Shown: positions 36,137 to 45,468 of the stretch, piece by piece
Position numbering within the stretch: the stretch's first letter is position 1
How the letters are laid out: each line of letters opens with the position of its first letter
DNA from: an uncultured Elusimicrobiales bacterium
Lineage (GTDB): Bacteria > Elusimicrobiota > Elusimicrobia > Elusimicrobiales > Elusimicrobiaceae
Length of the DNA: 45,468 nucleotides
NCBI GenBank assembly: GCA_944325055.1
Contig: CALUYP010000029.1
Location: forward strand, 1-45,468
Reading direction: 5' to 3'
Notes under the pieces: model-generated
Databases searched by the model: none
Told to the model about the DNA's origin: nothing
What the model saw: only the letters and a program-made list of their open reading frames with translations
Made by a program: the position numbers and the translations under genes

Positions 36137-36547
36137 TTAGTTAAACAAACCGGAAGATTCCAGTGCGTTTAATGCTTTGGTAATATCGTTTACCACGATA
36201 ATCCAGCGGGTAGTTTGTCCGGCACCTGCGGTTCCGTAAATAGTGGTAATGTTAATTCCGTGCTTGCATAGGACCGAGCCAATATCCCGTATTAATCCAA
36301 TCCGGTTGGAGGCATCTAAGCAAATGGCGTCTGTTTTGACGCTGGTAAAACCGGCTTTGGTCAACGCGTGGCTGATTTCTTCATCATATTTTACGGCCAA
36401 CCGGACAACCGCCGCATCGTAACGCACATCTTGCGAAATGGCGATAACATCCACGTTTTCGCGTACGAACAGATCGGCAAAATTTTTCAATGCGCCCGGT
36501 TCGTTAATCAAAAATACGCTATATTGCTTTACCACACTGATAGCCAT
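36137..36547 (-). CDS. Protein of two ACT domains
   Basis: A 136-residue protein made of two consecutive ACT domains (QYSVFLINEPGALKNFADLF and RIGLIRDIGSVLCKHGINITTIYG). ACT domains bind small ligands, usually amino acids. No catalytic domain is attached, so it may sense an amino acid or regulate another protein. It is transcribed alone. Confidence 0.85.
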   Translation of the reverse strand: MAISVVKQYSVFLINEPGALKNFADLFVRENVDVIAISQDVRYDAAVVRLAVKYDEEISHALTKAGFTSVKTDAICLDASNRIGLIRDIGSVLCKHGINITTIYGTAGAGQTTRWIIVVNDITKALNALESSGLFN

Positions 36548-43060: not shown

Positions 43061-43092
43061 GAGGATTGATTGACTCGTTTTTTTTTTTTTTT
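43061..43092 (+). repeat. 15-base poly-T tract near the pilin start
   Basis: GAGGA (43061-43065) and the presumed TTG start (43070) are followed by T15 (43078-43092). A run this long is prone to slippage in cells and to sequencing error. Confidence 0.7.
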
Positions 43093-43621
43093 AAGCTATG
43101 CATATGAAAAATATCCATCAAAAATCATTCTATTCGGAAAAAACGCCGGATTTACGCTTTTAGAGCTGTTAGTAGTGGTTTTAATTATTGGTATTTTGGC
43201 GGCAATAGCCGTTCCGAAATATGAGATGTCTGTCAAAAAAGCGCGTGTCATGAAAATGGTTCCTTTACTAAAAGCGTTAGTGAATGCAGAAGAATTATAT
43301 TGGTCGGCAAACGGAAAATATACCCCTTATATACACGATTTGTCGATTGATTTTCCACCGGGAGTTAAGTTGCAAGGCTGGAACGATACGGGTTATGTTA
43401 AATTGCCAGATGGAACCGTGTTGGATTTGTTAACAAATGCTGCTTATATTTCCACTTCAAATAGTTATGATTCTCTTGTAGAAGCCCTAATTCCAATTAA
43501 CGGCAAGACGATAACTTATAGATATTATCTGCGCAATTCAGCCTATCCGAATAGAAGGTATTGTACGGGAGATGCGGCATTGTGCAAGAGTTTAGGGGGG
43601 TATCCGTGGATTGATAAATAA
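43070..43621 (+). CDS. Type IV pilin-like protein (pseudopilin) with uncertain start
   Basis: The core is unmistakable: GFTLLELLVVVLIIGILAA, with the Glu at +5 after the cleavage Gly, then a long helix and a globular C-terminal part with two cysteines (CTGDAALC) as in Elusimicrobia-type pseudopilins. The frame as given runs from TTG at 43070 through T15, which would give Phe-rich residues, an unlikely leader. A more typical leader (MKNIHQKSFYSEK) starts at ATG 43104 in another frame, and adding one A to the run GGAAAAAAC near 43137-43145 would join it to the core. So the start is a frameshift, a phase-variable gene, or a sequencing error. Role: fibre subunit for secretion or DNA uptake. Confidence 0.75.
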   Translation: MTRFFFFLSYAYEKYPSKIILFGKNAGFTLLELLVVVLIIGILAAIAVPKYEMSVKKARVMKMVPLLKALVNAEELYWSANGKYTPYIHDLSIDFPPGVKLQGWNDTGYVKLPDGTVLDLLTNAAYISTSNSYDSLVEALIPINGKTITYRYYLRNSAYPNRRYCTGDAALCKSLGGYPWIDK

Positions 43622-43679: not shown

Positions 43680-43708
43680 TTGCACAGGTTTTATTTTTTT
43701 TCTATACT
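43680..43708 (+). promoter_or_regulatory. Promoter of the lysA leader
   Basis: TTGCAC (43680-43685), a 17-bp spacer and TATACT (43703-43708). Transcription would start near 43715. Confidence 0.6.
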
Positions 43709-43714
43709 TTTTCT

Positions 43715-43804
43715 ATGGCTAGTATTTTATTTCTCAAGTGTCAGAGCAAACAGATCAAGAGCAAAAAAAGCGCTTGCGGCTTTGCTTACAATTTTGCGGA
43801 CTAA
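43715..43804 (+). CDS. Putative Lys-rich leader peptide of lysA
   Basis: A 29-residue frame, MASILFLKCQSKQIKSKKSA and nine more residues, contains five lysines, four of them within residues 8-18. It begins about where transcription would start and ends 24 bases before a terminator hairpin upstream of lysA. This is the position of attenuator leader peptides, but AT-rich DNA gives Lys codons by chance, so the evidence is weak. Confidence 0.3.
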   Translation: MASILFLKCQSKQIKSKKSACGFAYNFAD

Positions 43805-43828
43805 AAACAGCCAGATGAAAAATTTTCC

Positions 43829-43862
43829 AAACCTCCGCTTAATTGTAAGCGGAGGTTTTTTA
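43829..43862 (+). terminator. Terminator/attenuator before lysA
   Basis: AAACCTCCGCTTA (43829-43841) pairs with TAAGCGGAGGTTT (43846-43858), a perfect 13-bp stem, followed by more T. It lies 35 bases before the lysA ATG. Confidence 0.85.
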
Positions 43863-43896
43863 CGGAATATTGAAAGATAACACAAGGAGAAAATAT

Positions 43897-45147
43897 ATGT
43901 GTTTCCATTATGAAGGCGGCGAACTGTTTGCGGAAGGGGTCTCTCTCCAACAAATAGCCAAGCAGGTAGGAACGCCTTTTTATTGTTATTCCACCCAGAA
44001 GCTGAGCCAAAATTTTAACGCTTACCGAAACGCCCTGTCCGATTTAAACGGTACAGTATGTTATTCCATAAAAGCTAATCCCAATTTAAGTGTAGTGGCG
44101 GCAATAGCCCGGTTGGGCGGTGGGGCGGATGTGGTATCCGGCGGAGAGTTGTATGTAGCGTTGAAGGCCGGTATTCCCGCAGACAAAATTGTTTTTTCCG
44201 GAGTAGGCAAGACCGCCGAAGAATTAACGGAAGCCGTCCGGTTGGGGATTTTGCAAATTAACGCCGAATCTGCCGCTGAAGTGGAAATGATTAACCAAAT
44301 TGCCATGGCCCAAGGTAAGAAAGCCAATGTCGCTCTGCGGGTCAACCCGGACGTGGACGCTTTAACCCATGTCAAAATTACCACCGGTACGAAAGAAAAC
44401 AAGTTTGGCGTTCCGTGGCAGGAAGCACATGAGTTGTATTTGGCCGCGTCGAAGATGCCGGGTATCCGTATTGCGGGGATTGCCGTACATATAGGTTCGC
44501 AATTGTTAGATTTGGAACCGTTCCGTTTGGCGTTTACGAAAATAGCCTCTATGGTCCGTGCGTTGGAAAATGACGGAATCATAATTGAAAATGTAGACTT
44601 GGGCGGCGGAATGGGCATTAATTATAATGTGGAATTGCCTCCCACTTGTGAAGATTATGCCCAGATCGTACGCGAAACGCTGGGCGATATGCGGAAACAT
44701 ATTATTGTAGAACCGGGCCGTTCCGTGGTGGGCAATGCGGGGATTTTGGTAACAGAAGTAATTTGCGCCAAATCAAACGGAGAAAAGAATTTTATTATTG
44801 TGGACGCGGGCATGAACGATTTGGTGCGTCCGGCCCTATACGATGCTTGGCATACCATTTTACCTGTGAGCAAGCAAGGAATAGCGCCGATTATTGCGGA
44901 TATCGTTGGCCCGATTTGCGAATCAGGCGATGTGTTTGCCCATGAGCGGATTATTGAACCCGTTCAAGCCGGCGGTTTGCTGGCTATTATGTGCGCTGGA
45001 GCCTATGGGGCGGCGATGTCTTCTATTTACAATTTCCGCCCGTTGGTGCCGGAAGTGATGGTAAACGGAGAGGAATTTGCCGTGGTACGCAAGCGTACCA
45101 CGTATGAAGAAATGTTGAGCGGACATGTAATTGCGCCGTGGTTATGA
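43897..45147 (+). CDS. lysA: Diaminopimelate decarboxylase
   Basis: A 416-residue PLP enzyme of the fold III group. CYSIKANPN carries the PLP lysine (K59). Other motifs: VSGGELYVALKAG, FSGVGKT, HIGSQLLD, GGGMGINY, EPGRSVVGNAG, CESGDVFA and GAYGAAMSS. It converts meso-diaminopimelate to lysine. The ATG at 43897 follows AAGGAG at seven bases. Downstream, ten bases away, is lysC, so this is a lysine biosynthesis unit. A promoter-terminator leader upstream suggests attenuation. Confidence 0.97.
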   Translation: MCFHYEGGELFAEGVSLQQIAKQVGTPFYCYSTQKLSQNFNAYRNALSDLNGTVCYSIKANPNLSVVAAIARLGGGADVVSGGELYVALKAGIPADKIVFSGVGKTAEELTEAVRLGILQINAESAAEVEMINQIAMAQGKKANVALRVNPDVDALTHVKITTGTKENKFGVPWQEAHELYLAASKMPGIRIAGIAVHIGSQLLDLEPFRLAFTKIASMVRALENDGIIIENVDLGGGMGINYNVELPPTCEDYAQIVRETLGDMRKHIIVEPGRSVVGNAGILVTEVICAKSNGEKNFIIVDAGMNDLVRPALYDAWHTILPVSKQGIAPIIADIVGPICESGDVFAHERIIEPVQAGGLLAIMCAGAYGAAMSSIYNFRPLVPEVMVNGEEFAVVRKRTTYEEMLSGHVIAPWL

Positions 45148-45157
45148 GGAATAAGTT

Positions 45158-45468
45158 ATGAGAAAAATTTGCATCATGAAGTTTGGCGGCAATACGCTGG
45201 CCAATAAACAAAAATTATTAATGGCGGCTGATTTAATCAAATCCCGCTATGATGATAATTTCATTCCGGTAGTGGTGGCTTCCGCCAACGGAAATTTGAC
45301 GGACGTATTATTAGATCATGCTTTTAGCATTACGCCTTCTCCCGAAAAAAGGGAATTGGATATGTTGGTTACTACCGGGGAACGCGTTAGCGTAGCGTTG
45401 TTATCCATTGCGCTACGTGCGATAGGGGTTCCGTCCGTATCGCTTACCGGTTCCCAAATCGGGCTGAT
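45158..45468 (+). CDS. lysC: Aspartate kinase, N-terminal part (3' end outside window)
   Basis: The visible 103 residues start MRKICIMKFGGNTLANKQ. The ATP-binding KFGGTS motif is KFGGNT here. They continue with VVVASANGNLTDVLLD and LLVTTGER-type ELDMLVTTGERVSVALLSIAL and SVSLTGSQ, matching the amino-acid kinase fold of aspartokinase. It phosphorylates aspartate in the first step to lysine, threonine and methionine. GAGGA lies seven bases before the ATG. The regulatory ACT domains lie outside the window. The start is in the same operon as lysA. Confidence 0.9.
   Translation, partial: MRKICIMKFGGNTLANKQKLLMAADLIKSRYDDNFIPVVVASANGNLTDVLLDHAFSITPSPEKRELDMLVTTGERVSVALLSIALRAIGVPSVSLTGSQIGL

Follow-up and report, generated by a model that had tools for sequence, protein, structure and literature searches.

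A lysine-rich leader peptide and a probable ribosome-dependent attenuator in front of lysA in the Elusimicrobiaceae

What controls lysA, the gene for diaminopimelate decarboxylase, in bacteria of the family Elusimicrobiaceae? Lysine synthesis is usually described as being governed by a riboswitch, a repressor or feedback inhibition, and not by a leader peptide. The question is raised by a stretch of 45,468 nucleotides from an uncultured Elusimicrobiales bacterium (contig CALUYP010000029.1 of assembly GCA_944325055.1; the whole stretch is called the window below). On its forward strand a promoter, a short reading frame, a terminator hairpin with a run of six T, the sequence AAGGAG and lysA follow one another in this order. 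An initial annotation had read the arrangement as an attenuator of lysA with a lysine-rich leader peptide; conservation of the leader and covarying alternative pairings support this. Judged from the window and its relatives, the element is very probably a ribosome-dependent attenuator of transcription, through which the level of charged tRNA-Lys governs a lysA–lysC operon.

The leader frame (43715–43804; forward strand, like all features below unless stated otherwise) encodes a peptide of 29 residues, MASILFLKCQSKQIKSKKSACGFAYNFAD, and contains the five lysine (Lys) codons first ascribed to it, at 43736, 43748, 43757, 43763 and 43766. The intrinsic terminator (43829–43861) has a 13-bp stem (43829–43841 with 43846–43858, loop ATTG) that is perfect, as had been claimed, and runs into the six T (43856–43861). 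Two further segments take part in the alternative folds. Segment 1 (43744–43750), the outer arm of a hairpin designated 1:2, covers one Lys codon and pairs with 43781–43787; the inner hairpin of 1:2 (43756–43776; 43756–43762 with 43770–43776, and one A·G mismatch in the window) holds Lys codons 15, 17 and 18 in its arm and loop. Segment 2 (43784–43800) is the 5′ strand of the antiterminator. The alternative pairing originally proposed, GCGGA (43796–43800) with TCCGC (43834–43838), is indeed complementary, but its 5 bp are only the end of a larger structure: a second, perfect helix of 10 bp joins 43784–43793 (GCTTACAATT) to 43841–43850 (AATTGTAAGC), separated from the first by an internal loop with two bases in each strand. 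The antiterminator strand thus pairs with part of the 5′ arm of the terminator, its loop and the start of its 3′ arm. Hairpin 1:2 sequesters the same strand, which gives the three-segment layout of the trp and his attenuators. The initial annotation therefore had the right pair of segments and missed the 10-bp helix, the 1:2 hairpin and the probable leaderlessness discussed below.

These pairings exceed what chance would give. The folded leader of the window has a z-score of −4.4, with none of 200 shuffled sequences as good, and the duplex between leader and terminator reaches −29.3 kcal/mol, against −17.2 ± 3.1 kcal/mol for shuffled leaders (0 of 300 as good). Among the 10 perfect terminators listed for both strands of the window, in which that of the lysA leader appears twice, no other leader pairs over more than 5 bp. 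One other listed terminator is preceded by a short frame; it has four Lys codons and a 5-bp pairing, and lies within the end of a coding gene.

From these parts we infer a course of events in which the start of transcription, translation of the leader, stalling and the response to lysine are all predicted steps. Transcription would start at or next to the leader AUG. With ample Lys-tRNA, the ribosome would reach the stop codon at 43802 and cover segment 2, so that the terminator could form and lysA would remain untranscribed. When Lys-tRNA is short, the ribosome would stall at one of the five Lys codons, covering segment 1 and freeing segment 2; this could then pair with the emerging loop and arms of the terminator, allowing RNA polymerase to proceed into lysA and lysC. 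If the leader is not translated at all, hairpin 1:2 would form, making termination the default. All features by which trp/his-type attenuators are recognised at the sequence level are found here, namely a Lys-rich frame, a terminator, an antiterminator, a protector hairpin and a lysine gene.

The element is shared by relatives of the window genome (a 1.32-Mb draft, 90% complete). Comparisons were made within a family set of 90 Elusimicrobiaceae genomes and a phylum set of 340 genomes. Conservation of the short frame was a point on which the original proposal could have failed; a frame of 21–31 codons with 5–7 Lys, followed by a terminator, is present in 37 of the 45 readable stretches upstream of lysA in the family. 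In the 26 leaders of one common length (two identical pairs included), Lys is invariant at codons 8, 12, 15, 17 and 18 in every case; the only other invariant residues are Met1, Q13, C21 and A28. Synonymous AAA/AAG variation occurs at exactly codons 8, 17 and 18 (19:7, 20:6 and 16:10, respectively). Codon 8 precedes the helices and codons 17 and 18 are in the loop of the inner hairpin, which places all three outside stems; the amino acid, not the base, therefore appears to be kept. Divergent leaders from other genera (L029, L032 and L036, the last reading MLKNAKKTDSVKKGSKKTLGA) retain runs of Lys without retaining the peptide. An early stop leaves L033 with only 21 codons, and in L021 a single base inserted behind the Lys codons changes the reading frame, so that the tail becomes ACLQFRG in place of AYNFAD; both leaders nevertheless retain a strand that pairs with their own terminator. 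From these cases the tail of the peptide after the Lys codons seems to matter little. The synonymous swaps, the loss of the tail and the divergent peptides favour sensing of codons over sensing of a nascent peptide and over a pure RNA switch.

The RNA structure is conserved as well. The covariation alignment comprises 26 of the 37 leaders, after removal of identical copies (L007, L020), near copies (L012, L017, L024, L028, L030) and divergent sequences (L029, L032, L036, L042). In these distinct leaders, 97.2% of the cells of the antiterminator hold standard pairs, and 6 of its 14 pairs are changed on both sides in one leader or more (22 cells); moving the partner strand by one to three columns reduces pairing to 36–43%. 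The alternative pairing, whose conservation in relatives had been suggested as a check together with that of the Lys codons, thus covaries. The largest contribution comes from column pair 75/143, which is G–C in 13 leaders and A–U in 12. Hairpin 1:2 and the terminator together are 91.1% paired (39–50% when the partner is slid), have both partners altered in 7 of 25 pairs and show no excess of further pair types (18, compared with 18.6 in shuffles). The outer helix of hairpin 1:2 is the loosest part (84.4% of cells paired), the inner helix reaching 95.1%. As the terminator is partly misaligned in five leaders (L026, L033–L035 and L045), these pairing counts should be somewhat lowered. A duplex test used 35 of the 37 leaders (identical copies dropped) with 300 shuffles each; in 34 of these 35, the duplex with the terminator beats at least 97% of the shuffles, and even the poorly alignable leaders L029 and L032–L036 have duplex z-scores of −2.8 to −4.4.

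Mutual exclusion of the two folds is seen in folding calculations with a masked ribosome, in which 15 nt downstream of the P-site codon are hidden and the Lys codon is placed in the A site. For the window, at the moment when the terminator stem is complete, a ribosome on any one of the five Lys codons gives the terminator a probability (P) of 0.00–0.13 and the antiterminator one of 0.86–1.00; if the ribosome has moved on to the stop codon, or if there is none, the terminator forms (P 0.98). The calculation for all leaders started from 35 of the 37, identical copies being left out, and L036 was unscored because the script did not recognise its terminator, leaving 34. When the stem has just been completed, 20 of these have one or more Lys codons at which a stalled ribosome brings the terminator below 0.2; in all 34 the terminator persists if the ribosome has reached the stop codon. 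Within this model, the direction of regulation, with read-through on shortage of Lys-tRNA, is supported, and about a quarter of cases rest on folding during transcription.

Several observations weigh against the proposed attenuator. Five Lys in 28 residues are not rare in themselves (P = 0.04 at the 7.0% Lys of the window), so that conservation, and not the number of Lys codons, carries the weight. The antiterminator swaps other than the column pair named above (C–G to U–A, A–U to C–G and U–A to G–C) occur mostly in L015, L016 and L019; since they cluster in one group of related leaders, there are fewer independent covariation events than cells. Genome G068, whose lysA (L037) is 68% identical to that of the window, has no leader. 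In the folding calculations, once the full U-tract is present at equilibrium, the terminator of the window returns for four of the five stall positions (P 0.58–0.93), and only the stall at Lys 18 keeps it low (0.05). In eight of the 34 leaders (L014, L016, L017, L027, L028, L030, L031 and L042), no Lys codon brings the terminator down to 0.7 at stem completion. Because the terminator regains ground at equilibrium in the one case and stays high in the other, antitermination must rest on folding that takes place during transcription.

Three other explanations of the locus can be compared with attenuation. The hairpin might merely terminate transcription of the gene upstream, with the short frame arising by chance; a pilin-like gene (43070–43621) does precede the element on this strand, and the sequence shows no separate terminator for it. 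However, the element accompanies lysA whichever gene lies upstream, be it a peptide deformylase gene, a pilin gene or a divergent gene, and conservation of both Lys codons and antiterminator is contrary to a chance frame behind a pilin gene, which leaves this explanation scarcely credible. A riboswitch that binds lysine (the L-box) or some other metabolite, with the frame as mere decoration, would share alternative folds and a terminator with an attenuator, and L-box control is common for lysine genes. It is nevertheless highly improbable here: the lysine riboswitch family RF00168 has no match in the window and none over the cut-off in the 340 phylum genomes, the same search being positive in 4 of 14 control genomes, and the Lys codons outside stems vary synonymously while remaining Lys. 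Nor did Rfam, searched with the window at gathering and at permissive expectation values (E), return any relevant family; seven weak matches (Spy779816, lysM-Prevotella and others; E 0.4–4.6) were taken as chance.

An arrest-peptide switch, in which the sequence of the nascent peptide and not the Lys codons would stall the ribosome in response to a ligand, is a little less improbable than the riboswitch, though still very unlikely. It would account for the strong conservation of the peptide within the genus of the window (KRVSKQNKSKK...), but the overlap of the frame with RNA segments 1 and 2 explains much of it; moreover, the leader peptides of other genera agree with it in Lys only, and the C-terminal part is lost or frameshifted in the two leaders described above. 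Attenuation by a ribosome that reads Lys codons remains by far the best account of the locus.

The leader is probably transcribed as a leaderless RNA. Upstream of it lie a −35 element, TTGCAC (43680–43685), a 17-nt spacer and a −10 element, TATACT (43703–43708), from which six bases lead to the ATG. In calling this a consensus promoter, the initial annotation was right about the −10 hexamer, which is good, but not about the −35, of which only three of six positions agree in register. A generic promoter and terminator scan of the region found promoter-like and terminator-like sites to be no commoner than in shuffled sequences, and the terminator of the lysA leader is absent from its listing. 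The case for a real promoter comes from its conserved spacing to the ATG: of the 37 leaders, 33 have TANNNT at exactly 6 nt before the ATG and three have it at 7 nt, with L042 as the exception, and in 35 of them TTGC or TTGA begins 35–36 nt upstream of the AUG. By a simple pattern search, no Shine–Dalgarno-like sequence precedes the leader start in any of the 37, whereas 35 of the 37 lysA genes that bear a leader have one. The conserved position of the −10 element and the usual spacing place +1 on the A of the leader AUG; transcription thus probably starts at or next to 43715, and the leader is predicted to be translated from an AUG at the 5′ end of its RNA. A TATAAT-like −10 hexamer 6–7 nt before the start codon is also found at 6 of the 45 genes of the window, from which leaderless mRNAs may be common in this genome.

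Behind the element, a Shine–Dalgarno sequence (AAGGAG, 43884–43889) precedes lysA (43897–45147; TIGR01048, 484.5 bits, cut-off 297.9). A lysC-like aspartate kinase gene (45158–45468) begins 10 nt behind lysA and is cut by the window end. With both genes behind it, the attenuator may govern lysine synthesis at its first and at its last step. The full-length kinase of a relative (L054, 8263–8991) has 242 residues and consists of an AA_kinase domain alone, without the ACT domains that usually carry the feedback inhibition of aspartokinases. A search of the window genome for the aspartokinase family revealed an apparent continuation of the lysC-like gene at the start of contig C61, this match including one in-frame stop; weaker matches on other contigs were taken as other members of the amino-acid-kinase family. 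The lysC-like gene thus seems to be the sole aspartokinase found in this draft, in which dapA and lysA are also present. Elsewhere in the window, a separate protein of 136 residues with a pair of ACT domains is encoded on the reverse strand (36137–36547); such a protein is also encoded near lysA in L047, L050, L053, L054 and L058, and it might serve the ACT-less kinase as a regulatory partner. The pilin-like gene has a run of 15 T at its start (43078–43092), a possible site of slippage and variable expression.

Across the family, lysA was detected in 46 of 90 genomes; the nearest public records are 82–94% identical to the lysA of the window. Where lysA is at least 67% identical to it (38 genes, one of them split over two contigs), 36 genes have the whole element, one has half and one none; the upstream stretch of L008 starts inside the element, at a contig end. 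The leader is missing from 7 of the 45 readable upstream stretches, namely that of L037 and those of six lysA genes at 51–54% identity (L038–L041, L043 and L044). The seventh gene in this range, L042, has a weak candidate, with a Lys-rich frame and a terminator, a duplex so weak that 37 of 300 shuffles do as well, and a start that is off the −10 spacing.

A covariance model built from 26 leaders, which match it by construction, gave 37 matches at E ≤ 4e-10 in 36 of the 90 family genomes. Of these, 35 are just before lysA on the same contig, one is at a contig end (G008) and one is an orphan (G036:C23). Two matching genomes, G080 and G081, had taken no part in building the model (E 2.3e-12 and 4.0e-10); the leader of G067 is beyond its reach and was found by eye. 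Next come the remaining half of the G008 element, at 4.2e-7, and then a match at 1.8e-5. Matches weaker than 1e-6 were treated as chance; L061, the one inspected, lies mostly between two convergent genes, with no lysA within the surrounding 2.6 kb. There were no matches at E ≤ 4e-10 in the 44 family genomes without lysA.

In 44 of the 90 family genomes, lysA was not detected and the leader element is missing too; loss of lysine synthesis seems to be frequent in this lineage. The orphan (L060, 880–1016; G036:C23:12279–12415) is a second leader copy, MVSLFFVKRVSKQSKSKKRFCVPACGN, which has a promoter-like sequence and is followed by a hairpin resembling a terminator; a convergent gene lies next to this hairpin, and no lysine gene comes after it. 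The orphan is either a relic or a free-standing small RNA. Outside the family, none of 35 upstream stretches of distant lysA genes, picked to span other families of the phylum, has a comparable element. A Lys-rich frame before a terminator in L070 was rejected, because a new promoter-like sequence follows the terminator, ahead of lysA.

A conserved and covarying Lys-codon attenuator before lysA would extend ribosome-mediated attenuation to the lysine pathway and to a little-studied phylum, and the covariance model provides a sequence model for finding further cases. Being probably leaderless, and standing ahead of the only aspartokinase found, the element offers a compact test case for translation at the very 5′ end of an RNA that controls elongation of that same RNA. 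The chances are about even for the broader proposal that this is a lineage-wide attenuator of the diaminopimelate pathway in the Elusimicrobiaceae, replacing both the lysine riboswitch and allosteric feedback, in which a leaderless peptide gauges Lys-tRNA and sets the expression of lysA and of the only, ACT-less aspartokinase.

Among known devices, the L-box likewise acts on lysine genes from within the 5′ leader; it differs in binding lysine directly, without translation, and its family RF00168 is absent here. A survey of Actinobacteria, in its passage on lysine operons, reports no conserved RNA structure before them in that group and names the L-box for others (PMC1262725).

The closest parallels are the trp, his, leu, thr and ilv attenuators of proteobacteria, which are ribosome-mediated and have leader peptides rich in codons for the end product. 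The present element resembles the trp/his type in its end-product codons, its mutually exclusive 1:2, 2:3 and 3:4 pairings and its terminator before the first structural gene. It differs in the amino acid that it would sense, lysine, in the lysA–lysC operon that it would control, in its probably leaderless leader and in its phylum, Elusimicrobiota; furthermore, the antiterminator strand in the Elusimicrobiaceae pairs with both arms of the terminator as well as with its loop. For lysine itself, leader-peptide attenuation of the aminoadipate gene cluster of Thermus thermophilus was reportedly described by Tsubouchi et al. in 2005. The likeness would lie in Lys codons in a leader peptide and in transcription attenuation of lysine synthesis; the pathway, the genes and the phylum are different. 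Thermus is the one lysine precedent known to us, and we know of none for lysA; a search of the literature, with most subscription papers outside its reach, likewise found no lysine leader-peptide attenuator of lysA.

In Sinorhizobium meliloti, the trpL (rnTrpL) leader-peptide gene of an amino-acid attenuator is described as leaderless on experimental grounds (PMC10117765). It shares this form with the present leader, although it serves tryptophan and belongs to the alphaproteobacteria. The same source names a candidate Sinorhizobium leader peptide, SEP5, with six Thr and three Lys codons at an aspartate dehydrogenase gene (PMC10117765); this too is a small Lys-containing frame ahead of a gene with a link to the aspartate family, in a passage that describes no attenuator structure. 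The mechanism proposed here is thus a known one, and its pairing of lysine with a gene of the diaminopimelate route is apparently new; the phylum is new for an attenuator of this kind, and the leaderless form has its precedent in trpL of S. meliloti, as described there.
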